NCBI GenBank assembly: GCA_903845115.1 | Contig: CAIMWE010000130.1 | Location: 1 to 53,895 of the forward strand | DNA from: an uncultured Acidobacteriota bacterium | Lineage (GTDB): Bacteria; Acidobacteriota; Thermoanaerobaculia; UBA5066 | Direction of reading: 5' to 3' | DNA length: 53,895 bases | Shown here: positions 11,173 to 41,406 of the stretch, piece after piece | How positions within the stretch are numbered: the first letter of the stretch is position 1 | Layout of the letters: every line of letters begins with the position of its first letter | The notes under the pieces: generated by a model | What the model saw: only the letters and a program-made list of their open reading frames with translations | What the model was told of the DNA's origin: nothing | The model's database searches: none | Program-made: the position numbers and the translations under genes

Positions 11173-11227
11173 GCTCCTTCCGCTCGCGGGGCCACCGTCA
11201 AGGCCAGCAGTAGCGCAGGGGGGGCGC

Positions 11228-18100: not shown

Positions 18101-21100
18101 CCGCCAGCGGCGCGCCGGGCACCGTGCGTGGCGTCACGCTCCCCGAGGTGCCCGCAGGGCCCGTTCCGATGCTGTTGGTGGCCTTCACGCCGAAGCTGTA
18201 CGCCGTGCCGTTCGTCAGGCCGGTGACGATGCAGTTCGTGGATGACGTGGTGCAGGTCTTGGTCGAATCCTGAACGGCGACGACCGTGTAGCTGGAGGCC
18301 GCCGGGGTATTGGCGCTCGGCGCGCTCCAGCTGACGGTGGCCTGGGCATTACCCGCCGCGGCCGAGACCGACTGCGGCGCACCGGGTATCGCACCCGGCG
18401 TCACGGAGGCGCTGGGGCTGCTGGGCGCGGAGGGACCGTGGGTGTTCGTCGCCACCACGGTGAAGGTGTAGGGAGTGCCGTTGGTCAGGCCGGTCACGGT
18501 GCAGCCGGTGCCGGAGGTCGTGCAGGTCTTGCTGCCGGAACTCGAGGTGGCCGTGTAGGCGCTGATCGTCGCGCCCCCGGTATTCGCGGGCGCCGCCCAG
18601 CTGACCGTGGCCTGCGTGCTCGCCGCCATCGCCGTCACGTCCGTCGGTGCGTCCGGGACGCCCAGCGGCACGACGCTGGCCGTGTCGGCCGGCCCGGCGC
18701 CGACGGCGTTGACCGCCCGGAGGCCGACGACGGCGGCGACCCCCTTCGTCAGGCCGGAGCTGATGGCGAGGGGGGACGAGGTCGAGACCGGATTGCGGGT
18801 GATCCAGCTGCCGGCGTTGATGCTGTACTCGTAGTTGGTGAGGGCCGAGCCCCCGGTCGCCCCCGCGCTGAAGGCGATCGACACCTGACCGAGGCTGCCT
18901 CCCGTCAATGCCGTGGCGCTGGTGATGGTTGGTGCACCGGGCGCGGTGGCGGGCGTGACGCTGACCGACGTGGAGGCGGCACCCGCGCCGGCCGCATTGA
19001 CGGCACGCAGGTAGACCGTGTACGAGGTGCCGTTGGTCAGGTTCGTAATGATGGCCGGAGTCGTCGCGGTCCCTGCCGAGGTCCAGGTTGTGCCATTCAG
19101 GCTGTATTCGTAGTCCGTCACCGGGTAGAGGCCGATGTCCCCGTTGTCGGCCGTCTGGGTCGGTGCCACGAAGGCGATCCTGGCCTGCTTGTCGGCGGGT
19201 GTCGCCACCAGCGACGTCGGCGCCTTGGGGCGGAGGTTGGCGATGGTGGCGCCGCTCGCGGTGTAGCCGAAGCCACCGCTGCCGGAGGTGTTGGTCGCCT
19301 GGACCCGGAAGAAATAGGTGCCGGCAGCAAGACCCGTGGCGGTGCAACTGAGCGACAAATTCGTGCCCGCACATCCGGTGGGCCCCGCGTAGCCGGTCGG
19401 CGGCGTGGTCGTCATCTGCACCGTGTAGCTCGAGATCGCTGCACCCCCGGTGTCGGGCGCGGTCCAGCTGACGGTCACGGTGCTCGCACCGCTGTTGGCG
19501 ACGGCCGTCACGGCCGCCGGGATATCGGGTGGATCGGCCACCGGCGTGACGCTGACAGCGCTCGACGCTATGCCGTTGCCCAGGGCGTTGACGCCGCGCA
19601 GCAGGATGCTGGAGGGCGACCCGTTCGTGAGACCGGTCACCACCACCGGGCTGGTGAAGCTGCCGGTCGAGGTCCAGCTCGACCCGGCATTCAGGCTGTA
19701 CTCGAAGCTCGTGACGGGCGAGCCTCCGTCGGCACCGGGGGTGAAGCTGATCGTCGCCCGTCCGTTGCCGGGGGTGGCGGCGAGGCCCGTCGGGGCGGCG
19801 GGCGTCCCGACCGCGATCGACGCGCTCGGGCCGGCGCCGATGGAATTGACCGCCCGCAGGAGAATGGTGTTCTGGCTGCTCAGCCCGCCGATGGTGAAGG
19901 CGTCGTTGAATACGTTGGCGGCAAGCCAGTTCGTACCGTCGAGGCTGTACTGATAGCCAAAGCCCAGCCCCGCCGGCGGGGTGAAGCTGATGGTCGCCTG
20001 GCCGGTGCCCGGTATCGTGGCCGCCAGGTTGGTGGGAGCGCCCGGCAGGGCTCCGACCGTCAGGTCCACCGCTGCGGTGCCGCTGCCAGCGGGATTGATG
20101 GCGGTCACGGTGTACTGCGCGGCGCCCGGACCCGATTGCTGGATGGTCAGATTGCCGATCCCCTGCTGGGAGATGGCTGACCCGGTCCTCGCCTTGAACA
20201 CGTGCTGCCAGCTGGAGCGATCCGCCGTCAGGTAGTCGTCCGGCAGCTGCACCTGATCGAAGATGCCTGTACTGCCGAGAGTCAACGTCAGCCGCCCGAG
20301 GGCGTCGATCTGCACCACCACTCTCGTTTTCGCGCCTGCCCAACCCATGTTGCTCGAGTAGGCCAGGACGCCATCCGACCCGGGAGTGGTCCCGGGGCTG
20401 CCGGACTTGGTGCCGTACATCACCCGGATGCCGGTGGCGCTGCTAGCGTTGCCGGCGTAGAGGTGGAACGCGATCGACAGACGGGTGCCGGCTCCCACCT
20501 CGCCGCCGGCGTTCGCGCCGTCGGGGTTGTCGGTGAAGCTGTAGCTCATCCCGTCCCCGGCGGGGTTAGGGTTGCTGACGTACATGTCGAAGCTGGTCCG
20601 GTAAGCCTGCGCGTTGACGCCGCTGCCGGCGCTTCCGAGAACGAAGAACGAGCCGGCTTGACTGTTCGAGGCAGGCGTCAATTCGACCCACGGGCCTGGC
20701 GACGACGACTTCCAGCTTGCGCTCCCGGTCGCGGTGGCGCCCTTCAGGTCGCTCGTGTCGAAGGTATTGGCGTACCACGACGCCAGTGCGCCCCCCGCGG
20801 GGCTGTTGACCGTCGGTGTGCCGCTGATGACGCCGGTCGTCGTGTCGAGCGTCAGTCCATCCAGAAGGGGTGGCCGGATGCTGAAGGTCGCCGCGGTGGC
20901 ACCGGTGTAGGCCGCCGAGGGCGTCAGCGCCGTTCCGGGCATTCCGGTCAGGGATTGCGTCGCCGGGCTCAGGCTCGGCACCGCGAGAGCGCTGACCGTG
21001 AGGGTGACCGTCGCCGTGGCGCTCACTCCGCCGCCGGTGGCGGTGATGGTGTACTGGGATTCCGCCTGGAGGGCGGTCGGGGTGCCGCTGATGACGCCAG

Positions 21101-24100
21101 TCGTCGTGTTGAAGGAGAGGCCCGCCGTCAGGCCGGTGGAGATGGCGAAGGTGGGCGCCGTGCTGAACCCGGCCGGCGTCAGCACCGCCGTCGGCGTCAG
21201 CGGCAGGTCCTTGGTGGCGGCGATGGTCTGCGTGGCGGGACTGAGCGCGGCAGACACGGCCAGCGACACGGTTGCGGTGGCCACGCCCGACGTGGAGCCG
21301 GTCCCCGTCACGGTGTACGTCGTTGCGAGCTGCGCCGTGACGGGCGTGCCGCTGACGACGCCGGTCGAGGTGCTCAGCGACAGGCCGCTGGGCAGGGCCG
21401 GGCTGACGGCGTAGCTCACCGTGCCGCCGAAGCCGCTGGGGGTGAACGCCGTGGTGGGGGTGATGGTGACTCCCGCGGTGCCGGTCACCGTCTGGCTGGC
21501 CGGACTGAGCGCCGGGGCTGCGGCTATGGCGATGCTGACCGCCGTGGTGGCCGTGCCGCTCGTCGCCCCGGTGCCGGTGATGGTGTAGGCGGCCGATGCC
21601 TGGCTCGCCGTCGGGGTCCCGCTGATGTCGCCTGTGCTGGTGTTGAGGCTCAGCCCCGTGGGCAGGCTCGGGCTGATGGCGTAGGTGACCACGCCGCCAA
21701 AGCCGATGGGCGTCAGCGCGGTGCTCGGCGTGATCGCGGTGCCGACCGTGCCGTTGAGCGTCTGCGTGCTCGGGCTGATGGAGGCGAGGTAGGTGAAGAG
21801 GCCGCTGCCGGTGGCGCTGCCGCCACCGGTGGTGACGATGACGTCTCGTGCTCCGGCGGTACCGGCCGGCGTGGTACAGGTGATCGAGGTCGCCGTGTTG
21901 GCGCTCAACGCCGTGCAGGCTGCACCTCCTATCGTCACGGCGATGGCGCCTGTCAGGTTGGTGCCGGTGATGGTCACGCTGGTGCCGCCGCCTGTCGGTC
22001 CGCTGGTCGGGTTGATGCCCGTGAGCGTCGGCGCCGCGAAAGAGTTCTTCAGCACCACGTCGTTGCCGTCACCTCCGGCGTAGGAGAGCACGTAGCTGAC
22101 GCCTCCCAGCGTCACCGTCGACCCCTCGGGCAGTCCGTTGAACGTGCCGACGACGGCACTGCTGCTTCTGTTGTCGATCAGGGTGTAGCTCGCAGAGGCG
22201 ACGAAGCCGGTCGCGCCGACGTTCAGCGTGAGCTTGGCCCCGCCCAGGTTGACGCTGCCGCCGCTGCCGATCACGACCTGGTCGTAGTTCGTCCCGGCGA
22301 CGGGAACCGCGACAGGATTGACGTCCAGCTTGACGGTGCTCGTGCCGTCCAGGGTCAGGGAGCCGAAGGTGAAGATGCCCGTCGGGATGCCGGGACTCGC
22401 CAAGCCCGGGGCGACGGTGGCCGCCGTCACGGTGACCGCGCCAAGCGATCCGTTACCCCCCAGCGTCCCGGCGGTGATCGAGCCCTTCACTGTCCCGGTG
22501 CCGTTCAGCATCTGGCTCCCGGTCCCCTGCTTGACGTAGGTCCCCGTACCCGTGATGCGGCCCGAGTAGATGGTGTTCGTGGAGTGGGTGCTCGTGAGCG
22601 TCGCGGACCCGAGCGCGATCTCGCTCGTTCTGGCGGTCCCGGTGCTCGTGAGTCCGGCCACGGTCTGGTTGAAGCCGTTCATGTCGAAGAGGCCGTCGTC
22701 GTAAACCGTGAGGATCTTGGTGGCCAGGAACTGGTCCGGGTAGGAGAGCCGGACCACGGCCGAGCCGGCGGTTCCGATGCCGTCCCCCACGACCAGACCG
22801 CCCGACACGGCCAGGCCGGCCGACCGGCTCAGCGTCAGCACGCCGTCGAGAAGGGTCGTCTGGGTGGCAGCCAGGTTGGCCTGGTCCAGCGTCGCGTTCG
22901 GGGAGCTGACCAGGAGGTAGCCGCTCGTCGGGGGGCTCCCGTCCGTGATGGTCGCCCCGGCCACCTGGGTGACGGAGACGCCAGAGTCGAGCCGGAGCTT
23001 CGAGGCCAAGGGTCGGGTCACCGGGGCGGTCACCGAGAGGGCGCCGGCGTCCGGCCCGCCGATTCGAACCGTCCCACCGTTCAGCATTGTTAGCTCGACC
23101 GCGGTGATCCCCAGCGCGCCAGAGGCCGTACCCAGCCCCAGGTCGATGGGACGATTGGCGGTCAGCGGCTTTACCCACAAGGTGAAGTTGGTGGGAGCCC
23201 TGAGGTTACTGTAGGCGAGGACGAGCTCGTCGGCGGTGACTGTGCAGTTGCCCCCCGCGCTCGCGACCGAGCCGCTGCTGCTCGCCTCGAAGGTGCCCGC
23301 CTCGATGCTGACCGGGCTCACGCCAATCGTTAAGAGCGACGCACCCGAGTAGCCCCCGCTCTTGAGGAATCGGACCGCCGTCTTGGCGGTCAGGACGACC
23401 GGGCCACCCGTGCTGGTGATGTACGTGACGTAGTCCATCACGATGGATCCCTGGGGAGCCAGGATGGTGACGCCATTGCCGCTGATGTCGGCATACCACC
23501 TCAGGTTGGTCACGTACGCGCCGAGCCGCACGTCGCCGGTGGTCGCAGTGATCGAGACGGCTCCCCCGGAGGACTCGACTGCGCGTGGATCCGTACCGAC
23601 CTTCATCACGTAGCCCACGACCCCGGTGCCGGCGACGATGGTGATGTCACCGGGCGCCTTGAAGGTCTCGTTGATGTTCTGGATGAAGAGGGTGCCGGTC
23701 GTGCTGAAGCCGATGGCGCCGGAGGTCTTGACCTGCACGCCGATGGTCGTGGCTGTCGTGTAATCGGGGGGTAGGGTCGTCACCCCGCCCAGGATCACGT
23801 CCCCGGTGTTGGCGACCTGGATGTCGCCGGTGACGGTGTTCAGCTCGATGTTCCCGGCTGCGGTGTCGAGCGGGTTGGCGGACGTCCCGATGCCGTTGGT
23901 CCCGAGGAGCTGGAGCTTGGGCACGGTCACGTTGGACGAGCCGGTCTGGGTGCTGCCGACGGACCCCACGACGGCCGTGACGATGTCGCGGACCTGGAGC
24001 TGGTTGAGAGTGAGCGTTCCGCCGCTCTTGATGTCGACGGCAAAGAGCTTGGTCGGCTTGTTGACCCCGGTGAAAGTGAGAGCGCTCGCCGCACCTGCCA

Positions 24101-24503
24101 GGAGGTCGATGGAGAGCTTCGAGACCGACGAAGATGTCAGGTTGATGGTCGCCGTGCTGGAGGTCGCGGGAGTGCCACTGCCACCGCTGTAGGAGAGGGC
24201 GCCTCCGGCCGCCGTAGAAGCGGCATCAAACGTCCCGCTGCCGAGCGTCAGCGCGAGGTTCCCGGACCCGTTGACGCTGACGGTCAGCTGGCCGTCTCCG
24301 TCCACCGTCTGCTCGGCCAGGGCCAGCGTGGAGGTCCCCGAGGTCCAGGTGAGCTTGATCGACGACGCGGCCAGGGCCACCGGCGCGGCGAGGAGGCCGG
24401 AGGCAAGGAGCACGAGGACGGCCGCGAGCCGGGCAACGGGGCCATGGCCGGCGGGGCCCGACGAGGGAGCGGGGGGGACCAGGGGTGCCTCGAGGTGCTT
24501 CAC
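12075..24503 (-). CDS. Giant IPTL-CTERM surface protein (4,142 residues), mosaic adhesin
   Basis: GTG start, then a Sec signal (about 20-46, VARLAAVLVLLASGLLAAPVA). Regions in order: beta-helix-like, haemagglutinin-type repeats (about 47-770) including an autotransporter-type repeat (near 650-705, GGNGSLGAVTV); an IPT/TIG domain (about 820-904); four putative Ig (He_PIG) domains (about 905-1485), the fourth interrupted by a lectin-like insert; eight fibronectin type III domains (about 1484-2213); a fifth He_PIG; 20 copies of an ~83-residue Ig-like repeat (about 2308-4007), nearly all with two Cys (GPCSL..., GSC.V.ATK); a Big-1-like domain; and the tail SIPTLGTLGMIGLGVLLGL then VLRRLV. That tail is IPTL-CTERM, a sorting signal with a Pro-Thr-Leu motif, transmembrane helix and basic end. 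The protein is predicted to be exported, processed and displayed for adhesion or biofilm. Minus-strand and plus-strand long frames overlapping it are shadows of the repeats. Confidence 0.93.
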   Translation of the reverse strand: MKHLEAPLVPPAPSSGPAGHGPVARLAAVLVLLASGLLAAPVALAASSIKLTWTSGTSTLALAEQTVDGDGQLTVSVNGSGNLALTLGSGTFDAASTAAGGALSYSGGSGTPATSSTATINLTSSSVSKLSIDLLAGAASALTFTGVNKPTKLFAVDIKSGGTLTLNQLQVRDIVTAVVGSVGSTQTGSSNVTVPKLQLLGTNGIGTSANPLDTAAGNIELNTVTGDIQVANTGDVILGGVTTLPPDYTTATTIGVQVKTSGAIGFSTTGTLFIQNINETFKAPGDITIVAGTGVVGYVMKVGTDPRAVESSGGAVSITATTGDVRLGAYVTNLRWYADISGNGVTILAPQGSIVMDYVTYITSTGGPVVLTAKTAVRFLKSGGYSGASLLTIGVSPVSIEAGTFEASSSGSVASAGGNCTVTADELVLAYSNLRAPTNFTLWVKPLTANRPIDLGLGTASGALGITAVELTMLNGGTVRIGGPDAGALSVTAPVTRPLASKLRLDSGVSVTQVAGATITDGSPPTSGYLLVSSPNATLDQANLAATQTTLLDGVLTLSRSAGLAVSGGLVVGDGIGTAGSAVVRLSYPDQFLATKILTVYDDGLFDMNGFNQTVAGLTSTGTARTSEIALGSATLTSTHSTNTIYSGRITGTGTYVKQGTGSQMLNGTGTVKGSITAGTLGGNGSLGAVTVTAATVAPGLASPGIPTGIFTFGSLTLDGTSTVKLDVNPVAVPVAGTNYDQVVIGSGGSVNLGGAKLTLNVGATGFVASASYTLIDNRSSSAVVGTFNGLPEGSTVTLGGVSYVLSYAGGDGNDVVLKNSFAAPTLTGINPTSGPTGGGTSVTITGTNLTGAIAVTIGGAACTALSANTATSITCTTPAGTAGARDVIVTTGGGSATGSGLFTYLASISPSTQTLNGTVGTAITPSTALTPIGFGGVVTYAISPSLPTGLSLNTSTGDISGTPTASQASAAYTITGTGATSGTATTAVSIAIAAAPALSPASQTVTGTAGVTITPTTAFTPSGFGGTVSYAVSPALPSGLSLSTSTGVVSGTPVTAQLATTYTVTGTGSTSGVATATVSLAVSAALSPATQTIAATKDLPLTPTAVLTPAGFSTAPTFAISTGLTAGLSFNTTTGVISGTPTALQAESQYTITATGGGVSATATVTLTVSALAVPSLSPATQSLTGMPGTALTPSAAYTGATAATFSIRPPLLDGLTLDTTTGVISGTPTVNSPAGGALASWYANTFDTSDLKGATATGSASWKSSSPGPWVELTPASNSQAGSFFVLGSAGSGVNAQAYRTSFDMYVSNPNPAGDGMSYSFTDNPDGANAGGEVGAGTRLSIAFHLYAGNASSATGIRVMYGTKSGSPGTTPGSDGVLAYSSNMGWAGAKTRVVVQIDALGRLTLTLGSTGIFDQVQLPDDYLTADRSSWQHVFKARTGSAISQQGIGNLTIQQSGPGAAQYTVTAINPAGSGTAAVDLTVGALPGAPTNLAATIPGTGQATISFTPPAGLGFGYQYSLDGTNWLAANVFNDAFTIGGLSSQNTILLRAVNSIGAGPSASIAVGTPAAPTGLAATPGNGRATISFTPGADGGSPVTSFEYSLNAGSSWTSTGSFTSPVVVTGLTNGSPSSILLRGVNALGNGIASSAVSVTPVADPPDIPAAVTAVANSGASTVTVSWTAPDTGGAAISSYTVQMTTTPPTGYAGPTGCAGTNLSLSCTATGLAAGTYFFRVQATNTSGSGGFGYTASGATIANLRPKAPTSLVATPADKQARIAFVAPTQTADNGDIGLYPVTDYEYSLNGTTWTSAGTATTPAIITNLTNGTSYTVYLRAVNAAGAGAASTSVSVTPATAPGAPTITSATALTGGSLGQVSIAFSAGATGGSALTNYEYSINAGSWITRNPVSTSSPLAISSGLTKGVAAVVGLRAVNAVGAGPADTASVVPLGVPDAPTDVTAMAASTQATVSWAAPANTGGATISAYTATSSSGSKTCTTSGTGCTVTGLTNGTPYTFTVVATNTHGPSAPSSPSASVTPGAIPGAPQSVSAAAGNAQATVSWSAPSANTPAASSYTVVAVQDSTKTCTTSSTNCIVTGLTNGTAYSFGVKATNSIGTGPAGTSGSVTPRTVPGAPLAVSATAGNAQVTVSWAAPTSNGGSAITGYSVTGSPGGSCTTAGATTCTVSPLSNGTSYTFEVKATNAAGTGAGASASATPALPALTPSSQTITATAGTAMTPTAALTSNSSFVGTVTYGIAPAVPTGLSFNSGTGVVSGTPSAAQSSISYTITGTGATSGLATATLAIAVGPATQGVLSLSAAPNPVHVNGTSLLSTGGGSGSGAVSYAVANGDPCSISGSTLTGTGAGSCAVTATKAADGTYGAATSSPVAVTVTLGPQAALVASASPTSVKVNGASSLYSTGGSGGGAVTYAVASGDPCTVSGSTLAGTGAGSCTVTATKAADAVYAAATSDPVTVSVSRNTQAALFVSASPTTISVNGASILSSSGGSGEGAVSYALVSGPCTLVGNQLTGTGVGTCSVSASKAESVAYSAATSSPIGVIVGLSPQTALSVLADPTTIKTGEWSQLTTTGGSGGGAVTYQVLSGPCILDGTRLTSASAGSCSVSASKAAEGNYASVTSAPMTVTVGLSPQSALSVLAAPSTIAVNDVSTLSSTGGSGTGAVTYALVSGPCSLEVESLTGTGAGSCSVTASKAADLAYAEATSSPITVTVGLSPQSTLSVSAAPTSISVNGSSALGATGGSGAGSVSYTLLDGPCSLAGSTLTGTGSGSCRITATKAADTSYASAVSAPLTLTVALAPQSSLSLLATPSVVNVGDSSVLAATGGSGSGSVTYALVGGPCSLSGSALSGMGAGSCVVTASKGADATYAATTSGPVTLTVGLAPQSALSGLADASTITVLGSSILSATGGSGSGAVTFALLGGPCSISGDTLNGLAAGSCSVSATKAEDSSYAAATSAPFTVTVGLAPQSTLEIQADPSALTVNGVSQLGGTGGSGTGSLSYSLLSGPCSLSGSALTGLGAGSCAVNVSKAADGTYAVATSDARTVPVGLAAQTPLSVSAAPTAITVNTDSILTTGGGSGGGAVSYQLLSGPCSISGATLTGLGEGGCTVVARKSADAAYAETTSGSIVVTSGLSAQSPLSLLADPTSISSGGRSALGTSGGSGTGVVSYSLLSGPCSLSGSLLTGIAAGSCSVAATKEADTRYAAATSAALPVTVGLTPQPTLTLTADPATINVTGSSTLSTSGGAGSGLVSYGVVSGPCSVSGSLLTGTGPGICSVEATKAADTTYASATSAPVTVTVGLAPQSSLTLLASPTTIDVNGTSALATTGGSGTGTVTYVLVGGPCSLSGSTLTGLQRGSCTVTATKAADATYASATSPPVTVTVGLAPQSSLALLASPTTVWINATATLSTTGGSGTGAVTYALVDGPCSLSASTLTGLQLGSCSVTATKAADVAYAQATSAAATVTVELAPQMPLAVVPSPTWIAAGGASTLTTTGGSGTGAVTYALVDGPCTLSGATLTALQKGSCWVTGTKAADATYAQVTSAPATVAVELIPQTPLTVRSEPSMLDLGPTLAGQGGSGSGRILQANPRFDGVLAVTGGSGTGQVFYTLLGGPCRLTGITLTGLDRGSCSVAATREADEVYARVTSEPVTVTVGLVPQSALALLADPSTVAVHGTGTLISTGGSGTGAVTYALVGGPCALSGATFTGIAAGSCSFTATKEADVTYATATSSPITITVGQSPQATLTLFASSGRIAANGTSALTTTGGSGSGVVTFSLIGGSCSLSGSTLTGLRAGPCDVSATKAADATYAEASAAPATVTVILAPQQALAASASPASIPVAGTSNLGSSGGSGGGAVTFSLAGGPCSLSGSTLTGLAAGSCVFTATKAEDAVYTQATSAPATVNVALSTQATLVLTATPSTVPVLSSALLATTGGSGGGLVTFALTSGSCSLSGNRLAGLSAGSCVVTASKAADGSYASATSSPITVTVGVGTASQLAFTTNPSATAMAGAAWAQQPVVTAQDASGNTDPSFNTPVILAIATGTGTLTCTTNPVRPVAGVATFSGCKVDAVGTFTLKATSGSFTNSTTNPSVVIVAESIPTLGTLGMIGLGVLLGLAGIVVLRRLV
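12480..17585 (-). repeat. Twenty tandem ~250 bp units encoding Ig-like repeats
   Basis: Counting from the protein's centre to its C-terminus, 20 units share the pattern L..A.P..I.V.G.S.L...GGSG.G.V.Y.L..GPCSLSG, then LTG...GSC.VTATKAAD..YA.ATS.P.TVTVGLAPQ. Units are diverged at most positions but keep the paired Cys. One unit (about 13560-13800) is enlarged by a second partial GGSGSG stretch. Such arrays commonly change length by recombination. Confidence 0.9.
20128..20797 (-). other. Lectin-like domain nested inside an Ig-like domain of the giant protein
   Basis: About 220 residues (WYANTFDTSDLKGATATG ... SFFVLGSAGSG ... DGMSYSFTDNPDG ... GNLTIQQSGPG) have the look of a legume-lectin/concanavalin beta-sandwich. 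They sit between TTGVISGTPTVNSPAG and AAQYTVTAINPAGSG, the two halves of one He_PIG domain. Confidence 0.6.
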
Positions 24504-24898: not shown

Positions 24899-25609
24899 TC
24901 AGTCGGTCTCGAAGGGGACCGAGAGGGCGTAGCCGAAGCCGTGGTCGGTCAGGATCGGGGAGGCGCCGCCGCAGGAGAGGGCGATCGCCTTCCGCGTCCG
25001 GCCGACGATCGACTCGAGGGCCTGGCGCGCCCCCTCCCCCTGGCCCGGGTAGAGCTCGTCGTAGAGCCGGCGGCGCGAGACCGTCTCTCCCGCGGCCTGC
25101 GCGAGGAGGAGGACGAACCGGAACTCCATCGCCCTCAGCTCGAGCCTCTCCCCGGCGGGGGCAATCAGCGCCCGCTCCTGCCTCAGGAGGGTCCAGCTCT
25201 TCGGCGCGGGTGACGGCTGGGTGATTTCCATTTCCTGCGGCTCGGACCTCCCGGCCAGACTCCGGATCGCGGCCTCCAGCTCGCGCCCGTCCACCGGCTT
25301 GGCGAGGAAGAGGTCGGCCCCCCCCCGGTAGCAGTCCACCCGGGTCCCGAGCGTGTTGCGCGCGGTGACGACGACGATCTTGCTGCCGGTCGTCCGCCGC
25401 GTGAAGTCGACCAGCACCTCGCCCGCCTCGTCCGGAAGGCCCAGGTCGATGACGGCGACCGTGAAGGTGCGCTCGGCCAGCGCCCGGTAGTAGGAGAGCG
25501 CGTTCGGGACGGCGGCCACCTCGAGGCCGGCGATCTCCAGGAACGTCTCCAGGCTGGCGCGCAGGTCGTCGTCGTCCTCGACGAGGAGGACGCTGGTCTT
25601 CTCGGTCAC
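24899..25609 (-). CDS. OmpR/PhoB-type response regulator
   Basis: This 236-residue protein starts at a GTG that overlaps the stop of the upstream kinase fragment as GTGA. The receiver (about 1-120) has VLLVEDDDDL, AVIDLGLPDEAG (phospho-Asp), VVVTARNTLG and LFLAKPVDG. The winged-helix DNA-binding domain (about 140-232) has LELRAMEFRFVLLLAQ, VSRRRLYDELYPGQ and ILTDHGFGYALSVPF. It is intact and near the usual 230-residue length. Its cognate kinase in this copy is truncated, so the intact kinase at 29011-30933, from the sister copy, may drive it. Candidate targets include the giant surface gene just downstream. Confidence 0.9.
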   Translation of the reverse strand: MTEKTSVLLVEDDDDLRASLETFLEIAGLEVAAVPNALSYYRALAERTFTVAVIDLGLPDEAGEVLVDFTRRTTGSKIVVVTARNTLGTRVDCYRGGADLFLAKPVDGRELEAAIRSLAGRSEPQEMEITQPSPAPKSWTLLRQERALIAPAGERLELRAMEFRFVLLLAQAAGETVSRRRLYDELYPGQGEGARQALESIVGRTRKAIALSCGGASPILTDHGFGYALSVPFETD

Positions 25610-26012
25610 GCCCCATCCTCCCGCGATCGCCTGTCGAGCGCCACCGTGACCTCGAACCGCCCCGGGAGGTCTACCCGGAGCGCCGCGTCCCCTCCCAGGT
25701 CGCCGACGAGCCTCTTCATCAGGTGGAGCCCCATGCCGCTCCCCTCGGTCCCGGCGCTGTTGACCCCCCGCGTTCCCCGCTGCAGCAGAAGGTCCGGCGC
25801 GAGGCCGGGCCCGGCGGCGCAGGCGTTGCCGATCGTCACCTCGAGGCGCTTCCCGGCCCTGGCGAGACGGACGTCGACGGTGCTCCCTGGGTCGGCGTAC
25901 TTCCCGGCGTTCGCGAGCAGGCTGAGGAAGACCGTCTTCAGCAGCTCGGCGTCGGCATCGAGGAAGTATTTCCCGTCGGGACGGAAGTCGATCGGGTGCT
26001 CCCCCTCGCTCC
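25233..26012 (-). repeat. Direct repeat A (HK 3' end + RR 5' part)
   Basis: This ~780 bp segment corresponds to 28637-29419 in the same orientation. Similarity begins abruptly at TTCCTGCGGCTCGGACC and ends near CTCCGCCTCGCTCCC / CTCCCCCTCGCTCCC. The encoded kinase ends differ at about 8 of 127 residues and the receivers at about 6 of 97, so the duplication is not brand new. Confidence 0.85.
25606..26012 (-). pseudogene. Truncated histidine kinase (ATPase domain only)
   Basis: From HPIDFRPDGKYFLDADAELL to the stop, this is the HATPase domain of the full kinase at 29011-30933 (LLANAGKYAD, GNACAAGPGLAP, GSGMGLHLMKRLVGD). The sensor, membrane and HisKA parts are absent. The open frame continues to 26151, but the extra N-terminal 45 residues are unrelated to the kinase. 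It overlaps the regulator downstream by four bases. Without a phospho-acceptor His it cannot be a normal kinase, though the ATPase fold could still be made. Confidence 0.82.
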
Positions 26013-26186
26013 CAGCGCCGCAATCCGGAGCCAGGACCCCAGCAGATAGCCGGACGGGCCGAACGGAAAGGCACGTCCATGGTTCGAGTGGGGTTCCAGC
26101 GGCGCTGTCGCTGAGACTCGAGCTTCCTATCCCTTCGCGAAGTCGGTGCAATATGGGTACCTGTGAGTTATGATATAGTTTCCCAT

Positions 26187-26432
26187 ATGAAGACGACGGT
26201 CGAGATTAGCGACCCGTTGATGCGCGAGGCGCGAGCCGCCGCGGTCCGCGAAGGGCGAACGCTCCGCTCCCTCCTCGAAGAGGGGCTCCGCGAAGTGCTC
26301 GCGGGGCACAGGAAGAAGGGGCGAACGCTGCTGCGCGACACGAGCGTCGGAGGCAACGGCCTGCAGCCCGGGGTCGACCTCCAGAACGCTGAACAGATTC
26401 GCGCACTCACTTACGAGGGCCGGGGCGGGTGA
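26187..26432 (+). CDS. VapB-type antitoxin, second module
   Basis: The start at 26187 gives MKTTVEISDPLMREARAAAV, the same opening as the antitoxin at 6327, followed by GRTLRSLLEEGLREVL (DUF2191/VapB style) and a tail ending ALTYEGRGG, 81 residues in total. An in-frame ATG 24 bases earlier is less likely. The promoter region is notably AT-rich for this window (TTATGATATAGTTTCC). It overlaps the toxin gene by four bases (GTGA). It should bind DNA at its own promoter and neutralise the PIN toxin. Confidence 0.83.
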   Translation: MKTTVEISDPLMREARAAAVREGRTLRSLLEEGLREVLAGHRKKGRTLLRDTSVGGNGLQPGVDLQNAEQIRALTYEGRGG

Positions 26433-26863
26433 TCGCTCTCGACACGAATGTCCTGGTCGCCGCTCATCGAAGGGACGTACCGGCCCATGCGGCAGCTCGG
26501 CGCGCTCTCGCGACGCTAGCGGAGGGGCGGGAGCCATGGGCCGTGCCGTGGCCGTGCGTTCACGAGTTCCTGGCGATCGTCACTCATCCCCGTGTGTTTT
26601 CGCCTCCTTCGGAGCTCGACCAGGCGCTCGCCGAGGTGTCCGCGTGGGCGGAATCAGGCTCTCTCGTCTTTCTTTCCGAGGAGGATGGATACTTCGCCGT
26701 GCTAACGAAACTTCTCAGAGATGGGCGAATCTCTGGGCCCCGAGTGCACGACGCGCGGATCGCCGCCCTCTGCGTCCTGCATGGAGTGAAGGAGCTGTGG
26801 TCGGCTGACCGGGACTTCGGCCGGTTTCCCGAGCTGCGAGTCCGGAATCCTCTTGTCGGTTGA
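26429..26863 (+). CDS. VapC-type PIN-domain toxin, second module
   Basis: The 144-residue protein starts at the GTG of a GTGA overlap. PIN residues are visible: Asp in IALDTNVLVAAH, Glu in CVHEFLAIVTHPR, Asp in VHDARIAALCV and Asp in LWSADRDFGRF. This subgroup (with TNVLVAAHR and VHEFLAIVTHP) is common in bacterial chromosomal vapBC pairs. The pair lies in the segment between the two direct repeats, so it may have arrived with that segment or help retain it. Confidence 0.87.
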   Translation: MIALDTNVLVAAHRRDVPAHAAARRALATLAEGREPWAVPWPCVHEFLAIVTHPRVFSPPSELDQALAEVSAWAESGSLVFLSEEDGYFAVLTKLLRDGRISGPRVHDARIAALCVLHGVKELWSADRDFGRFPELRVRNPLVG

Positions 26864-27130
26864 CCCAGACGGTGTCGAATGGAAGACATGCATGACTTGA
26901 CCTGAATGCAAGAAGGCCTGTCTGGTGCGGTTACGGGGACTCCGTTCCGTGGCCATCAGCAGTCGAAGTTGTCGCCCCTGGTCGGAACGGCCCGCGAAGC
27001 GATCGATTTCGAAGGTCGCCTGCGCTCGGGCGGCAACATCCGCCGGAAGACCGGCCTCAGCCAGGAGCCCCGGTGCCCCGGGGTCCCGACAGCGACGCAC
27101 TGTCAGCGGACGGCCGCCCCTTCCCGCGCC

Positions 27131-28378
27131 CTACGTCCGCGGCGCCGCGCGGAGGGTATCGAACCACTTCCCCGCGTCCTCGACCTCGAACAGGAAGGTA
27201 CCCCGGTGGTCGGCCTTGGCGCCGGCGGGCACCGATGTCGTGGGGCCGGCCCCCATCAGCGTGTGGAGCAGCTCGGGAAGCTTGGCGATCGCGACAGGGA
27301 CGACCTCGTCGATGTCGCCGTAGTAACAGCGCATCTGCGTCCGGCTCTTCCACCGGCAGCCGTGCTCCTCCTGGAGCGTCTGCCAGTACGCCGTCTCCCC
27401 CAGGAGGCCCGACGCCACGAACTCGGGCCGGAGCATCTCCTTCACGCTCGCGGGCGTCATCCCCTTGAACGCCGCCCAGCCGATGCGGTTCGCGTAGAGG
27501 TCCCGGCAGGCCGCGAGGTACCGGGACTCGATCGCCGACGCGGCGAGCCCGTCCCGCCCGTAGTAGGACTCCTGCGCGAGGATCTGGAGCGCGACCACGC
27601 CTGTCAGGTAGGAGGCGTCGATCGGCTGCCGGTTGTGGATCCAGCGGTTCGTCGTGACGTAGACGTCGGTGGGCGCGCTCGCCGTGGCGGCCGCCGTGAC
27701 GGCGATCCCGGCGCCCTCGAGCCTCTGCAGAAAAGAGAGCGTCGCCCACCCGCCCTGTGACCAGCCGCTCAGGAAGAGGGGCCCCGGCGTGACCTTGAGC
27801 GAAGCGAGGACCCCCCGGGCGGCGAGCAGCATGTCGAAGCACGCCTGCTGCGTGCTCCCCTTGACGAGGTAGCTGTCGGGCTCGGACGACTGCCCCTTGC
27901 CGAAGTAGTCGGCCGCGACGACCACGTATCCCTGTCCCGCGAAGCGGGCCACCATGAGCCGCGTCTCCATCGACTCCTCCGGGGACGAAGGCACCTCCGT
28001 CTTCGAGAAGACCGTGCCGTGCTGGTAGGAGACGACTGGCATCGATGCGAGAGGCGTGTCGGGCACCGCGACGAGGCCCGAGGCGACCGTCGGCCTGTTC
28101 GACTGCTCGGGCACGACGGACGGGTACGTCACCCGGTAGAGCTTCACCGCGTAGCGCGCGGGGGGAAACGTCGTCGGCGACTTGTCGGCGAACCCCTGCT
28201 CGACGAGCTCGGTCGTCATGATCCTGCCGAGGCGCTCGACGCTGTAGCTGCCGATCGGCTCGTAGGAGACGCCCGACGGGACCGCGACCTGCTGCGAACC
28301 CGCCAGGGCGCGCAGCACAGGCAGGAGGGTGACGAGGACGACGAGGAGGCGCGGGGGGATGGAGCGGAATGCACGCAC
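27131..28378 (-). CDS. Exported alpha/beta hydrolase (secretory lipase-like)
   Basis: The GTG start at 28378 gives a 415-residue precursor with a Sec signal (VRAFRSIPPRLLVVLVTLLP, cleavage near ALAGS). An ATG at 28468 would add a 30-residue leader, so the start is uncertain. The catalytic triad is readable: Ser207 in FLSGWSQGGW, an Asp in CYYGDIDEVVP and a His in AKADHRGTF. The oxyanion-side MPVVSYQHGTVF and YVVVAADYFGKGQS also fit secretory lipase-type hydrolases. The protein should hydrolyse esters outside the cytoplasm; the substrate is unknown. It lies between two copies of an HK/RR segment. Confidence 0.85.
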   Translation of the reverse strand: MRAFRSIPPRLLVVLVTLLPVLRALAGSQQVAVPSGVSYEPIGSYSVERLGRIMTTELVEQGFADKSPTTFPPARYAVKLYRVTYPSVVPEQSNRPTVASGLVAVPDTPLASMPVVSYQHGTVFSKTEVPSSPEESMETRLMVARFAGQGYVVVAADYFGKGQSSEPDSYLVKGSTQQACFDMLLAARGVLASLKVTPGPLFLSGWSQGGWATLSFLQRLEGAGIAVTAAATASAPTDVYVTTNRWIHNRQPIDASYLTGVVALQILAQESYYGRDGLAASAIESRYLAACRDLYANRIGWAAFKGMTPASVKEMLRPEFVASGLLGETAYWQTLQEEHGCRWKSRTQMRCYYGDIDEVVPVAIAKLPELLHTLMGAGPTTSVPAGAKADHRGTFLFEVEDAGKWFDTLRAAPRT

Positions 28379-28636
28379 GGGCCCGGAGTATGAAGGAGCA
28401 CGAGGAGGGACCAAAAGGGAAACGGGACTTTGATCCTCGCTGGTAGCGCGGCTGATTGGCCGGGACATGCCGAGGTGGGCTGAACTGGCATGAGGGGTTC
28501 GGCGGCAGAGGTTCGTGAGGGGGGCGGGCGAGAAGGGGTAGCCGGTGGCGGTCAACCACACGCCTTCGTGTCGGCCCCTCCTGGTCGTTCGGCTCCGAAC
28601 TGGTCTCGGCGGTCCGAATACCGCGGTCGAGGGACC

Positions 28637-29014
28637 TTTCCTGCGGCTCGGACCTCCCGGCCAGGCTCCGGATCGCGGCCTCCAGCTCGCGCCCGTCCAC
28701 CGTCTTGGCGAGGAAGAGGTCGGCCCCCCCCGGTAGCAGTCCACCCGGGTCCCGAGCGTGTTGCGCGCGGTGACGACGACGATCTTGCTGCCAGTGGTGC
28801 GCCGCGTGAAGTCGACCAGCGCCTCGCCCGCCTCGTCCGGAAGGCCCAGGTCGATGACGGCGACCGTGAAGGTGCGCTCGGCCAGCGCCCGGTAGTACGA
28901 GAGGGAGTTCGGGACGGCGGCGACCTCCATGCCGGCGAGATCCAGGAACGTCTCCAGGCTCGCTCGCAGGTCGTCGTCGTCCTCGACGAGGAGGACGCTG
29001 GTCTTATCCGTCAC
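28637..29014 (-). pseudogene. Response regulator, frameshifted and lacking its DNA-binding domain
   Basis: From the GTG at 29014 the receiver is normal (VLLVEDDDDL, AVIDLGLPDEAG, VVVTARNTLG) up to DCYRGG. There a run of C has eight bases where the sister copy (about 25318-25326) has nine, which shifts the frame. The correct frame resumes as MDGRELEAAIRSLAGRSEPQE and then homology ends at 28637, before the winged-helix part. So it carries both a homopolymer frameshift and a 3' truncation. It is coupled to the intact kinase upstream by a GTGA overlap. Confidence 0.87.
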
Positions 29015-29419
29015 GCCGCATCCTCCCGCGATCGCCTCTCGAGCGCCACCGTGACCTCGAACCGCCCCGGGAGGTCTACCCGGAGCCTCACGTCCCCTCC
29101 CAGGTCCCCGACGAGCCTCTTCACCAGGTGGAGCCCCATGCCGCTCCCCTCGGTACCGGCGCTGTTGGCGCCGCGCGTCCCTCTTTGCAGCAGGAGGTCG
29201 GGCGCGAGGCCGGGCCCGGCGGCGCATGCGTTGCCGATCGTCACCTCGAGGCGCTTCCCGGCGCGGGCGAGACGGACGTCGACGGTGCTCCCCGGGTCGG
29301 CGTACTTCCCGGCGTTCGCGAGCAGGCTCAGGAAGACCGTCTTCAGCAGCTCGGCGTCGGCGTCGAGGAAGTACTCCCCGTCGGGTCGGAAGTCGACCGG
29401 GTGCTCCGCCTCGCTCCCC
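28637..29419 (-). repeat. Direct repeat B (HK 3' end + RR 5' part)
   Basis: This is the counterpart of 25233-26012, in the same orientation and separated from it by about 2.6 kb holding vapBC and the hydrolase. In this copy the kinase continues intact to the right and the regulator is cut off; in copy A the opposite holds. Confidence 0.85.
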
Positions 29420-30933
29420 CCGCTCGCTCCCCCCGCGAGGAGGGTGCGCAGGAGGGCCACGAGGTCCACCCGCTCGAGCCGGATCGGCCGCGACTCTCCC
29501 CACTCCCCGCGCCGGAGCGTGTCGTCGAACAGCCCTCCGAGCCGGTCGATCGCCTCTCCCATCATCCGCAGGCTGCGGACCTTGCGCCCCGGGTCGTCCG
29601 TCCTGCCGAGGATGTCGACGTTGGTCCGGAGGATGGCGAGGGGAGTCCGGTACTCGTGGGCGACGACGTCGACGAACTTTGCCTGCTGTTCCCGCAGGCT
29701 TCGCTCGCGTCGGGCATCCGCCTCGGCCTCGCGCGCCGCGTCCAGCGCTCGGCGCCGGTCCCGCCGGAGGGCGACGACGCGGGCGACGATCCCCGCCTGC
29801 AGCGTCAGGGCGCCGGCGAGCGCGGTCACGTTCATGCTTTGCAGAAGGGCGATCCGGCTGGTGATGGCCCCCAGCAGCTGCAGCGTCGTCCAGACGAGAC
29901 CCGCCGCGAAGATGAGGGTGGCCGTGAAGAGGAAGCCTCCTCCCGGGGTCCCCCCCCGCCACTGGCGGAAGGAGAGGGGGACGATGACCACCGCCATCCC
30001 CAGCACGACGGCGCTCGACAGGCGCGCCGCTTCGACAGGAGAGCCGAGCGCCACCGCGCCCAGCGCCGCGATCGGGAGCCAGAACCCCAGCTGGAACAGG
30101 ACGCGGAGCGCCCCCCGCCGGCTCTCCGGCAGGAGGACGTACCGATAGAAAAGGGAACCGAGCGAGACGGAGGCGTGCGTCGCGACGACCACCAGCGCGT
30201 CGGCGAAGCCCGGGTGAGAGGGGAGCAGGTACTGGGAGAGGAACCCCTCGTTGCCGAGGAGCGTGGCGATGATCCCCACCAGGTACGCCACGAGGAGGGC
30301 GTGGACCTCCTCGCGAAGCCAGAGCCACGCCCCGACGTTCACGAGGAGGAGGACCAGGAGGAGGCCGAGGTTCCCGAACAGGATGCCGTAGACGACGTTC
30401 TTCGCCGCGAGGAACTCTCCCGGCGCCCAGAGGCGCGGGAAGAGGATGGAGCTGTGGTCCGTCCTCAGGCGGAGGTAGAAGGTCCGGAGCACGGCGTCAG
30501 TCCGGGAGACCCGGAAGACGAATCCTCGGTAGGCTACCTCGCGCGCCGAGAAGGGGAGCAGGCACCCGGCCCGCCGCTCGGAGAAGGCGCCGGGCTGCGC
30601 CGGGTCGGGCTCGTGGAGCCGCAGGTCGTCGAGGAACGGGGGGAGGACCTCCAGCCACCACTCGCCGGCGGGGGCGTCGACGGTGAAGCGCATCCAGTGG
30701 ACCGAGCGCGTGAACCCGGCCGAGAGGATCCCGGGGACGGGCCTCCAGCGCTCCGGGGGGGCGGCGGCGACGCTCGCGACCGTCTCGGTCCCGGAGCTGT
30801 CGACGAGGACGGCGATGTCGCGAAGCAAAGGGGAAGGGGCCGGCGCGGCGGCCCCGGCCGCCGCCGCGAGCCCCCGTCCCGCGCAGGCGAGCGCGCAGAG
30901 GACAACCGCGAGGCGAGCCGCCCGTTCCCTCAT
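29011..30933 (-). CDS. 7TMR-DISM histidine kinase
   Basis: The 640-residue protein has a signal peptide (MRERAARLAVVLCALACAG), then a periplasmic 7TMR-DISM extracellular beta-sandwich (about 35-170: VHWMRFTVDAPAGEWWLEV, FYLRLRTDHSSILFPRLW). Seven membrane segments follow (about 178-390), then a coiled coil, HisKA with H426 in VDVVAHEYRTPLAIL, and HATPase with LLANAGKYAD, GNACAAGPG and GSGMGLHLVKRL. DISM receptors typically sense carbohydrates or other solutes. Its own regulator (28637-29014) is broken, so the sister regulator at 24899 is the probable output. It stands divergent from the plus-strand exporter operon. Confidence 0.92.
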   Translation of the reverse strand: MRERAARLAVVLCALACAGRGLAAAAGAAAPAPSPLLRDIAVLVDSSGTETVASVAAAPPERWRPVPGILSAGFTRSVHWMRFTVDAPAGEWWLEVLPPFLDDLRLHEPDPAQPGAFSERRAGCLLPFSAREVAYRGFVFRVSRTDAVLRTFYLRLRTDHSSILFPRLWAPGEFLAAKNVVYGILFGNLGLLLVLLLVNVGAWLWLREEVHALLVAYLVGIIATLLGNEGFLSQYLLPSHPGFADALVVVATHASVSLGSLFYRYVLLPESRRGALRVLFQLGFWLPIAALGAVALGSPVEAARLSSAVVLGMAVVIVPLSFRQWRGGTPGGGFLFTATLIFAAGLVWTTLQLLGAITSRIALLQSMNVTALAGALTLQAGIVARVVALRRDRRRALDAAREAEADARRERSLREQQAKFVDVVAHEYRTPLAILRTNVDILGRTDDPGRKVRSLRMMGEAIDRLGGLFDDTLRRGEWGESRPIRLERVDLVALLRTLLAGGASGGSEAEHPVDFRPDGEYFLDADAELLKTVFLSLLANAGKYADPGSTVDVRLARAGKRLEVTIGNACAAGPGLAPDLLLQRGTRGANSAGTEGSGMGLHLVKRLVGDLGGDVRLRVDLPGRFEVTVALERRSREDAA

Positions 30934-33516: not shown

Positions 33517-34228
33517 AGCGACGGCGGTCCTCGAGCTGCGGGGCGTGCGGAAGTCGTACCCCGGCGCCGTCAGCACCGAGGTCCTCCACGGCATCGACAT
33601 CAGGGTCGATCGCGGCGAGTTCGTCGCCCTGGTGGGGCCCAGCGGCTCCGGAAAGAGCACCCTGCTGAACATCCTGGGCCTCCTGGATAGACCCACCAGC
33701 GGCACCGTGGAGATCCTGGGAGAGGACTGCACGGGGCTGGACGACGCGGGACTGACGAAGCTCCGGGGCCGCAGCCTCGGGTTCGTCTTCCAGTTCCATC
33801 ACCTGCTGCCGGCCTTCACCGCCGAGGAGAACGTCTACCTCCCCCTCATGGCGGACAAGGGGCATTTCGAGCCAGGGATGCGAGAGCGCGCCCGGGACCT
33901 CCTCGGCCGCATCGGCCTGGAGGGGTTCGAGACCCGCCTCGCGTCCCGGCTGAGCGGCGGCCAGCAGCAGAGGGTCGCCATCGCCAGGGCCCTCGCCATG
34001 AGCCCGGCCCTGGTCCTGGCGGACGAGCCCACGGGCAACCTGGACCAGGCTTCCGGCCAGCAGGCCTTCCAGTTCATGCGGCGGTTCAACCGCGAGCTGG
34101 GTACCGCCTTCCTGCTGGTGACCCACGAGCCTCGCCTGGCGGCGCTATGCGACCGGACCCTCACGCTGGTCGACGGCCGCATCGTCGGCGGCGAGACGGG
34201 TCCGAAAGGGAGCCCGGCGGTGGCGTAG
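33509..34228 (+). CDS. ABC ATPase (LolD/MacB/DevA type)
   Basis: This 239-residue ATPase has Walker [10 protein letters not shown] (about 46-54), Q-loop [18 protein letters not shown], signature [15 protein letters not shown], Walker [13 protein letters not shown] and a switch His in LVTHEPRLA. The ADEPTGNLD and [12 protein letters not shown] stretches are typical of the LolD/FtsE/MacB group that works with FtsX-fold permeases. It is the last gene of the three-gene operon. A 6 bp-stem hairpin (34244-34260) lies between it and the convergent kinase remnant. Confidence 0.95.
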
Positions 34229-34260
34229 GTGACTCGGCTTCCACCTCGCTGTCGGCGAGG
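34222..34260. terminator. Hairpin between convergent genes, shared with the other kinase locus
   Basis: CCTCGC-TGTCG-GCGAGG (34244-34260) follows a GGCGTAGGTGACTCGGCTT copy of the interspersed repeat. The same hairpin and flanks recur at 41370-41406 after the second kinase. It has no T run, so it may act on both strands weakly or be a repeat boundary rather than a terminator. Confidence 0.4.
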
Positions 34261-34283
34261 ATTCCTACGCCTTCCGCTAGGTA

Positions 34284-34835
34284 CTAAGTCCCGCCGTCGG
34301 ATCGCGGCCTCGCTGGAAGCGAGAAGGAGAACGTCGCTCCCTTTCCCACCTCGCCCTCGGCCCATATTCGCCCACCGTGACGGGCCAAGATCCGCTGGAC
34401 GAGCGCGAGTCCGATGCCCGTTCCCTCGAAATCGGACTCCTTGTGGAGGCGCTGGAAAACCCCGAAGAGCTTCTCGACGTTTGCCATGTCGAAGCCCGCA
34501 CCGTGGTCCCGCACCCGGAAGACGGCGTTGTCCCCGTCTAGCGCCCCTTCGATCTCGATCAGGGGGTGTTCCGCCTTGGCCGAGAACTTGACCGCGTTCG
34601 ACAGCAAGTTGATCCAGACCTGTTTCAGCAACGACGCGCTTCCCTGAACGGGCGGAAGGTCTCCGATCCGGAAGTCGATCGGTCCTTTCAGGCCGGCGTT
34701 CTGAACGATCTCCTCGGCGGATGTCCGGGCCATCTCGCGCATATCTACACGGTCGCTGACCATCTCGGCTCGCCCCGCCCGCGAGAAGGTGAGCAGGTCG
34801 TCGACGATCAGGATGCTGGCTTTCCGCTCGCTCAT
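34284..34835 (-). CDS. Chimera: start of a response regulator fused to a kinase ATPase domain
   Basis: The 183-residue frame begins MSERKASILIVDD, the opening of a receiver, and its ATG overlaps the stop of the hybrid kinase upstream (ATGA), as a genuine operon partner would. Immediately afterwards it reads DLLTFSRAGRAEMVSDRV, the end of a HisKA domain, and then a complete HATPase (QVWINLLSNAVKFS, RVRDHGAGFDMA, GTGIGLALVQRI). The last 130 residues are paralogous to the end of the kinase at 41387-43972. A deletion joining similar ATC-GTC-GAC-GAC sequences in the two genes would produce this. It keeps an ATPase but neither the receiver Asp nor the kinase His. Confidence 0.8.
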   Translation of the reverse strand: MSERKASILIVDDLLTFSRAGRAEMVSDRVDMREMARTSAEEIVQNAGLKGPIDFRIGDLPPVQGSASLLKQVWINLLSNAVKFSAKAEHPLIEIEGALDGDNAVFRVRDHGAGFDMANVEKLFGVFQRLHKESDFEGTGIGLALVQRILARHGGRIWAEGEVGKGATFSFSLPARPRSDGGT

Positions 34836-37800
34836 TTCTGGTCCCCGGGCCGTTCCATCGCGTGGTCCGCGAGGAGTTCCGTGATCCGGTCGTAGTCGAA
34901 TTGCTCGGCGAGGCTCCGCACGGCGGCGGCCGTCTCCGGGTCGCTCCTGGCCAGGTCGGTCGTCAGCTTCAGGAGCTGATCGAGGTCGGCCCTGGCGATC
35001 GCCTCCCGGAGTTCCTCGAGGAGCGCAGCCGGGATCGGCCTGGGGTGCGACGTGACCGGCGTGGCGTTCTCTGCTGCGGGCTCCGGGGCGACGTCGTTCT
35101 CGAAGACGAACCGGATCCCCAGGTGGCGGCTGACCTTCCGGAAGAGTTCTGCCTCGCGAAACGGCTTGCCCAGGAAGTCGTCCCCTCCGGCGGCTTCCAC
35201 CAGCAGCCGGTCGTCCTCGAAAGCGCTCGCGGTGACGGCGATGACCGGAACCCGCCCTTCCTTCTCGCGGGATCGCAGGGAGCGGATCGCCTCCAGGCCG
35301 TCCATACCCGGCATCCGGAGGTCCATCAGGACGAGGTGCGGGTGCCAGGAAGAGAAGAGCTCCAGCGCCTGTCGCCCGTCGCTGGAGGTCCGGACCTCGA
35401 ATCCGACGCGCTCCAGCATCTGGCGGAGGACCTCGCGGTTGTCCTCGATGTCGTCGACGACCTCGATTCGCCGGCGGGCCTCCTCCGGCTGCAGGCCGGC
35501 CACGCGGCGGGGCGAGGGGACCTCCCGGGGAGTCGATCGCGTCGCGGGCCCCACCGGCAGCGTCACGGTGAAGACGCTTCCGAGGCCCACCTGGCTCCTG
35601 ACGGTGATGTCGCCGCCCATGAGACGAGCGAAGCCCCGGCTGATGGCCAGGCCCAGACCGGTCCCACCGCCGGCCTCCCGACCGGATCTGGTCTGCTCGA
35701 ACCGCTGGAAGAGCTGCGGAAGCTCCTCCTCGGAGATCCCCGGGCCGCTGTCCTCCACGTCGACGACGAGGAGCGGATCCCGCTCGCCGGTCGATCCGTT
35801 CCCGACCCTCACCATCAGCTTCAGCTTCCCCTCGGCCGTGAACTTCAGGGCGTTGCCGACCAGGTTGATCAGGATCTGGCGAAGCCTCCGCTCGTCGGTG
35901 ACGACGTGGCGGGGGACGGCGGCCGACAGGTCGACCTCGAAAGCGAGGCCCTTGGCCTCCGCCCGGATGCGGAACATCGACTCGAGGTCCCAGAAGAGGT
36001 TGTACACGTCCACTTCCGCGGGGTTGACCGCGACCCGCCCGGCCTCGATCTTCGACATCTCCAGGATGTCGTCGATGAGGCCCAGCAGGTGCTCCCCGCT
36101 CCGGCTGATCGACCGGAGCTGCTCCCGCTGCCGGGGGACCAGGCCGGAATCCCCGAGGAGGAGCTGGGAGAAGCCGAGGATCGCGTTCATCGGAGTCCGG
36201 ATCTCGTGCGACATGCTGGCCAGGAAGGTGCTCTTCGCACGGTTCGCGGCCTCGGCGGCCTCCTTCGCCTCGGCCAGGTTCCTCGCCTCGCGGGCGAGCA
36301 CGTGGTCGGTGATGTCCTGGATGGTCCCGGTCGAGCGCCGTGGCGTGCCGTCCTCCGAGAGCTCCGATCTCCAGCGCGCCCTCACCCACTTGACCCGCCC
36401 GTCCGGCATCAGCAGGCGGTGGTCGATCTCGTGAGGCGCGGAGTCCGAGAAGGAGGAGTCGTACGCCATCCGAACCCGCTCGCGGTCCTCGGGGTGGACG
36501 GCCTCGAAGAACGCCTCGGTCGAGGTCCCCCAGGCCGCCGCTTCCCGTTCGAACACGTGGAAGATCTCCGGGGAGCGGACGAGGATCCCGGTCGTCAGCT
36601 CGAGGTCCCAGCTCCCGAGAAGGGCAAGGGCCTGGGCTTCCTCCAAGCGCTCCCGGCTCGAGGCGAGGGCGTCTTCCGTCCGCTTGCGCTCGGTGATGTC
36701 CTCCTTGATGGCGACGTAGTGGCTCACCTGCCCGTCCGGGCCCGTGACGGGCGCGATCACGGCCAGCTCGATGTAGACCTCGCCGTTCTTCTTCTTGTTG
36801 TGCAGCTCTCCCCGCCACACTCTTCCGGCGACGAGCGTCTGCCACATGTGGACGTAGACGTCCGGCGCGGTCTCTCCCGACTTCAGCACGCGCGGGTTCT
36901 GTCCACGGACCTCCTCGAATTCGTAACCCGTCACCCGGGTGAAGTGCGGGTTCGCGTACTCGATGGCGCCGTCGAGGTCGGTGATCACGACGGAGACCGG
37001 ACTCTGCTCGATGGCCCGGGACAGCTTCCGCAGCTGGATATAGGTCAGGCGCCGCTCCGAGATGTCCCGAGCGACGCCGAGGACCTGGCCGGCGCGGCGG
37101 CCCGCATCCGGCATCAGGGTGATCGCGACTTCGGTCCAGACGGCCGTGCCGTCCGTTCTCAGCAGCTCCAGCTCATAGATCCTGTGACGGGCCGTCTCGT
37201 CACCGGCCTCGAAGGCGGTCCGCTGCGCCAGGACGCCCTCTTCGAGGGACTCCCGGCCCGCGGGGGACAGGTGGGCGCTCATCGGCTGGCCGATCAGCTC
37301 CTCGGGGGGGACGCCGAGCAACCGGACTGATGCGGGGCTGACGTAGGTGAACGTGCCGGCCGCCAGATCGCCGAGCCAGATCAGCTCCTGGGTGTTGGCG
37401 GCGATCAGGCGGTAGCGCTCGTCACTTTCGCTGAGGGCGCGCTCCATCCGCTTCCGATCCGTGATGTCCTCTTTCAATGCAACGAAATGGGTCGGCCGGC
37501 CCTCGTCGCCCGTCACGGGCGCCACGACCACCAGCTCGACGTACGACTCTCCGTCCTTCCGCCGGTTGATGATCTCGCCTCGCCAGATCCTGCCGCCGGT
37601 GATGGTCTTCCAGAGGTCCTCGTAGACCTCGGGCGGGGTCTCACCCGATTTGAGAAGGCGTGGATTCAGGCCGCGCACCTCGTCGAAGGAGTACCCCGAG
37701 ACCTCCGTGAAGCGCGGGTTGACGTACTCCATCGCGCCGGCGAGGTCGGTGATGACGATGGCCACCGGGCTCTGCTCGACGGCGCTGGAGAGCTTTCGCA

Positions 37801-39577: not shown

Positions 39578-39613
39578 CAGCCGGGCCTCGTTCCGGGCCG
39601 GCTCGTATGCTTC

Positions 39614-41167: not shown

Positions 41168-41324
41168 GAGGCGAACTGCCCAAGGCTCCCGGCCACGAGG
41201 CCTTCCTCACGAGCGAATTGTCTTCGTTCACTGGAGCGCGAGAGGTTCGCATGGACTGTCTCCGTCGCTCGACCATTGGTCCCGACTCACTCCGTCTGAC
41301 CGGAAACGAAGGGCCTGGAAGGAT

Positions 41325-41406
41325 GGCCCGTGCCCCGTCAGTATCCCCCATGGGGTGTCCGGGTGGGGGCGCAGGTGACCCGGCTTCTACCTCGCTGTCG
41401 GCGAGG
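41325..41406 (+). repeat. Interspersed repeat copy plus hairpin after the second kinase
   Basis: This contains CATGGGGTGTCCGGGTGGGG and GGCGCAGGTGACCCGGCTT, homologous to 7005-7055 and to 34222-34240, followed by the CCTCGC/GCGAGG hairpin at 41390-41406. From here the similarity to 34226-34355 continues into the coding ends of the two kinases, so the whole 3' region was duplicated together. Confidence 0.45.

Follow-up and report, generated by a model that had tools for sequence, protein, structure and literature searches.

The window, a 53,895-nucleotide stretch of DNA from an uncultured Acidobacteriota bacterium, carries two direct copies of part of a histidine kinase-response regulator (HK-RR) operon. 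These probably stem from duplication of the operon long ago, and reciprocal loss in the two copies would then have left one kinase (HK-B) and one regulator (RR-A) as a single split system. Read in this way, the locus legibly shows how a signalling operon, once doubled, can be reduced by complementary losses to a single kinase and a single regulator. The two copies (Table 1) differ by 46 mismatches and one 1-base gap, and an ungapped scan recovers the same pair as two blocks; the longest exact run between them is 76 bp. They enclose a spacer of 2,623 bp (26014-28636), and the alignment thus bears out the layout given in the preliminary description, namely direct HK/RR repeats of ~780 bp bracketing ~2.6 kb with vapBC and a hydrolase gene. 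The outer flanks of the repeats supply the gene halves that are missing at their inner ends.

Table 1. Features of the duplicated locus, in window coordinates.
Feature	Position	Strand	Evidence
Direct repeat copy A	25231-26013		736/783 columns identical to 28637-29418
Direct repeat copy B	28637-29418		Alignment with copy A
RR-A, complete OmpR-type response regulator	24899-25609	-	PF00072 (receiver) and PF00486 (Trans_reg_C)
HK-A remnant: ATPase domain (25606-26013) plus 30 bases of upstream kinase (26014-26043)	25606-26043	-	Repeat alignment, Pfam, shuffles
Putative vapB antitoxin, overlapping vapC by 4 bp	26187-26432	+	Position
vapC toxin, PIN domain, Mtu_PIN_fam	26429-26863	+	PF01850 (8.1e-12); TIGR00028 (5.6e-29), above cut-off
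Alpha/beta hydrolase, esterase type, probably exported	27131-28378	-	Weak PF12146 and PF00326 matches; start codon chosen by eye
Tyrosine recombinase gene scrap, 55 bp	28500-28554	-	93% identical to C198:18604-18658, inside a PF00589 gene
RR-B fragment, receiver only, frameshifted, truncated where the receiver domain ends	28637-29014	-	Repeat alignment, reading frames
HK-B, complete 7TMR-DISM histidine kinase, 640 aa	29011-30933	-	PF07696, PF07695, PF00512 and PF02518, all above cut-off

Each copy is broken by its own lesions. As had been proposed, domain searches and reading frames assign to copy B a complete kinase and a cut regulator, and to copy A a complete regulator and a cut kinase. HK-B contains 7TMR-DISMED2, 7TMR-DISM_7TM, HisKA and HATPase_c domains, and in the HK-A reading frame Pfam matches the HATPase domain alone. 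RR-A has a GC3 of 0.97 and starts with a GTG that overlaps the HK-A stop codon. RR-B has been damaged by a frameshift, a G-run being one base shorter than in copy A, and by a 3' loss that has taken the DNA-binding half; in addition, its receiver has Lys-Thr in place of the conserved Lys-Pro. HK-A has lost its 5' part and, through a flush internal deletion, a further 643 bp. Just outside the repeat, positions 26014-26043 align gap-free to HK-B at 30062-30091, after exactly 643 missing bases, and this 30-base match scores above every one of 1000 dinucleotide-shuffled versions of the adjoining 174 bases. The lost segment is the equivalent of HK-B residues 291-505, HisKA (417-474) included, and, 643 being no multiple of three, the deletion shifts the frame. 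Because the match to HK-B resumes beyond the gap, copy A must once have held a longer kinase, and position 26013 is a deletion scar. As HK-A continues across the deletion into more distal kinase sequence, the duplicated unit once measured at least about 1.45 kb. The earlier statement that both repeats end inside genes at the cargo junction therefore holds for RR-B, which is cut there, but not for HK-A, which runs past it.

The copies are old and have diverged mostly as genes under coding constraint. This follows from the distribution of the 46 substitutions, 30 of which affect the third base of a codon (binomial p = 1e-5, with sites past the frameshift read in the RR-A frame), and from the rates (kinase part: dS 0.176, dN/dS 0.22; regulator part up to the frameshift: dS 0.137, dN/dS 0.24). 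Repeats in frequent exchange are expected to remain more alike than these, and the 6% drift, the dS values and the shortness of the longest exact run indicate that exchange has not kept the copies uniform. An uninterrupted HK-RR pair on another contig of the same genome (C105), whose kinase is 53% identical, allows the changes to be polarised: 36 of the 46 can be placed and 10 receive no placement. Third positions account for 3/9 changes on HK-A, 9/13 on HK-B, 5/6 on RR-A and 5/8 on RR-B, although against this outgroup, at 69% identity, third positions are probably close to saturation. With a receiver-only regulator of the window, RR3, as the outgroup, 13 of 19 changes can be placed, 4 on copy A and 9 on copy B. 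The HK-A changes resemble those of neutral sequence, and their direction would fit decay of HK-A with constraint kept on HK-B and RR-A, but the contrast in codon positions between HK-A and HK-B is by itself not significant (Fisher p = 0.19). The neutral look of HK-A also fits a copy truncated from birth. For RR-B, the 5/8 may mean that decay is recent or that the count is too small.

Divergence of this kind could also be older than the arrangement itself. Two alleles, about 94% identical and from different strains or species, might have been joined by transfer and recombination, which would explain why the substitutions mostly look coding-selected (the same third-position excess) though each copy contains a broken gene. 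We consider this origin unlikely, since neither a donor nor a relative with the operon is found in the order, class or phylum genomes searched (see below). An identity of 94% is what one typically sees between strains or species, and the genome is a draft in 305 contigs, so that an assembly chimera joining strain variants of one operon also comes into question. It is nevertheless considered very unlikely: the copies show different and unrelated decay (the 643-bp deletion against frameshift and truncation), and 2.6 kb of other sequence lies between them, so that any false join would have to cross the spacer.

The topology of the outer flanks fits a single crossover as well as it does a duplication. 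In a Campbell-type integration, a circle bearing an internal fragment of the operon together with vapBC and the hydrolase gene would have integrated by one crossover, and recombination between the repeats could remove the cargo again. The outer flanks do complete the truncated genes, a crossover between the repeats would yield a single HK-RR operon, and 76 bp of exact match is long enough for RecA-dependent exchange. However, homology does not end cleanly at both cargo junctions, as HK-A carries an internal deletion and copy A continues for 30 bases across the 643-bp gap. Nor are the repeats identical or nearly so, as expected of a recent event, but 94% identical with dS about 0.14-0.18. In addition, no circle functions are recognisable in the spacer, where the only trace of a recombinase is a 55-bp scrap, and vapBC and the hydrolase gene differ in strand and GC3. 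Integration from a circle is accordingly judged unlikely, and the internal deletion and the repeat divergence rule out a clean single crossover as the best reading. Of the two routes offered in the preliminary description, the clean circle has thus given way, while tandem duplication, its second option, makes up the larger part of the present reading.

Reversibility of the cargo had been proposed as well. The topology permits repeat-to-repeat recombination, which could leave one HK-RR operon, but given the 6% divergence, the internal deletion and the lack of any recognised integrase or replication gene in the spacer, reversibility is unsupported. A combined scheme, in which the split system sits in a reversible layout, with HK-B driving RR-A, the spacer carrying its own addiction module and occasional recombination rebuilding the operon and dropping the spacer, seems very unlikely. 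An integrase-borne element would be expected to have a complete integrase and attachment sites. No PF00589 match occurs on the contig of the window (C130), the genome total being nine, and the spacer shows no recognisable integrase or replication gene beyond the recombinase scrap. When two 100-base stretches at the spacer ends are compared, there is no direct repeat of at least 7 bases, and the longest inverted match is 8 bases. The scrap, for which 0/500 shuffles reach the alignment score, is a fragment, not a gene, and sits near the RR-B break. The recombinase gene that it matches (L031, C198:17500-19107) lies at a contig end with its two halves in different frames, and short pieces 93-98% identical to this gene occur at C130:28500 and C269:9168.

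The remaining spacer genes do not resemble one unit, as vapC has a lower GC3 and vapBC and the hydrolase gene lie on opposite strands. GC3 is 0.70 in vapC, 0.83 in vapB and 0.95 in the hydrolase gene, compared with 0.91-0.97 in the two-component genes and the gene for the exporter fusion protein (MFP), which suggests that the genes arrived on two or more separate occasions. The pair resembles type II toxin-antitoxin vapBC systems in having a PIN-domain toxin and a small overlapping upstream gene, but differs in that the antitoxin is unrecognised by Pfam and NCBIfam models. The earlier assignment of vapBC therefore stands for vapC, a VapC-family PIN protein (TIGR00028), while vapB is named from its position. 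As had been suggested, vapBC might favour retention of the cargo; PIN-domain matches number 53 in the 5.85-Mb genome (52 above the curated cut-off, two on this contig), and a vapBC pair near a breakpoint is hence unsurprising. The same count amounts to a heavy vapC-like load, and a second vapBC-like pair lies near the left end of the contig at 6327-6952, with a PIN match at 6566-6922. The hydrolase gives weak matches to S33/S9 families (Pfam) and, in phmmer searches of the PDB, hits the uncharacterised 4ezi (1.7e-20) and the esterase 3h2g (4.3e-14). Of the label exported hydrolase in the preliminary description, the second word agrees with these esterase-like matches, and the first is probable, judged by eye from a hydrophobic N-terminus. 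Relatives with 43-45% identity occur in 2/395 other genomes of the phylum, and none is found at 1e-20 in 18 other genomes of the order.

Paralogs of the HK-RR pair within the genome include the C105 pair and RR3. Outside it, no kinase relatives are found at 1e-40 in 18 other genomes of the order, or at 1e-60 in 147 other genomes of the class and 395 of the phylum, these samples overlapping one another. A genome of the same genus, 77% complete, likewise gives no hit. A search of named genomes yields one distant kinase match, from Mucilaginibacter (23% identity), and when the whole block is compared at DNA level with 60 relatives, only short, weak matches appear. HK-B and RR-A contain the defining domains of 7TMR-DISM kinase/OmpR-type regulator systems but, apart from the C105 paralog, lack a close relative in the phylum sample. 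The ABC exporter that diverges from HK-B is present in 7/18 other genomes of the order, six of them readable on the kinase side (L046 ends just past the exporter; in G009 the exporter is split over two contigs). None of the six carries HK-B, an RR, vapBC or the hydrolase gene beside the exporter (protein matches at 1e-8), and the neighbourhood differs in all six. The block is thus not found at this place in the searched relatives, none of them preserves an intermediate, and the ancestral state is not readable from them.

In the preferred reading of duplication and reciprocal loss, for which we infer both the order of events and a duplicate of the whole operon, the ancestral HK-RR operon would have been duplicated, a tandem or near-tandem event being the simplest assumption. 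The copies would then have drifted 6% apart, mostly under coding constraint, before the inward-facing sequence decayed, RR-B losing its DNA-binding half and its frame, and HK-A its 5' part and the 643-bp segment. Between the copies, vapBC, the hydrolase gene and the recombinase scrap would have arrived or remained. The outcome would be one complete kinase and one complete regulator about 3.4 kb apart. Judging from their intact domains, HK-B and RR-A probably still act together as one two-component pair, and if so, annotation that expects adjacent partners would label both as orphans. On the whole, the locus looks like ordinary genome wear and not a mobile cassette, and layouts of the form repeat-cargo-repeat can arise by decay.

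Comparable wear is described for myxobacterial two-component systems. In a survey of these systems, large and small indels, frameshifts, pseudogenes and occasional duplications are treated as normal gene turnover, and frameshifts are reported through which RRs lose or gain effector domains (PMC4603909). Duplication, domain-removing indels or frameshifts, and pseudogenes are shared with the present locus, which differs in that two adjacent copies have suffered reciprocal losses and a vapBC-hydrolase spacer lies between them. The locus thus fits known turnover of two-component systems, with complementary losses as the twist. A narrow literature search turned up no description of a comparable reciprocal HK/RR loss.

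Other parts of the window contain further signalling genes and repeats. RR3 (11615-11995), with 76% DNA identity to RR-A, stops near the same point as the RR-B cut and adjoins a histidine kinase gene at 9598-11382, the N-terminus of which we take to be DUF3365-like. Between RR3 and RR-A, a minus-strand ORF of 4142 aa (12075-24503) appears from its translation to contain Ig/fibronectin-like and PKD-like repeats, with a signal-like segment at the N-terminus and a C-terminus of the IPTL type. An IS1634-family transposase lies near the left end of the contig (496-2175). At 34832-43972, histidine kinase-like genes follow one another, with repeats both within and between them, including 34213-34804 versus 41359-41943 (74%) and 36665-37036 versus 37433-37804 (73%).
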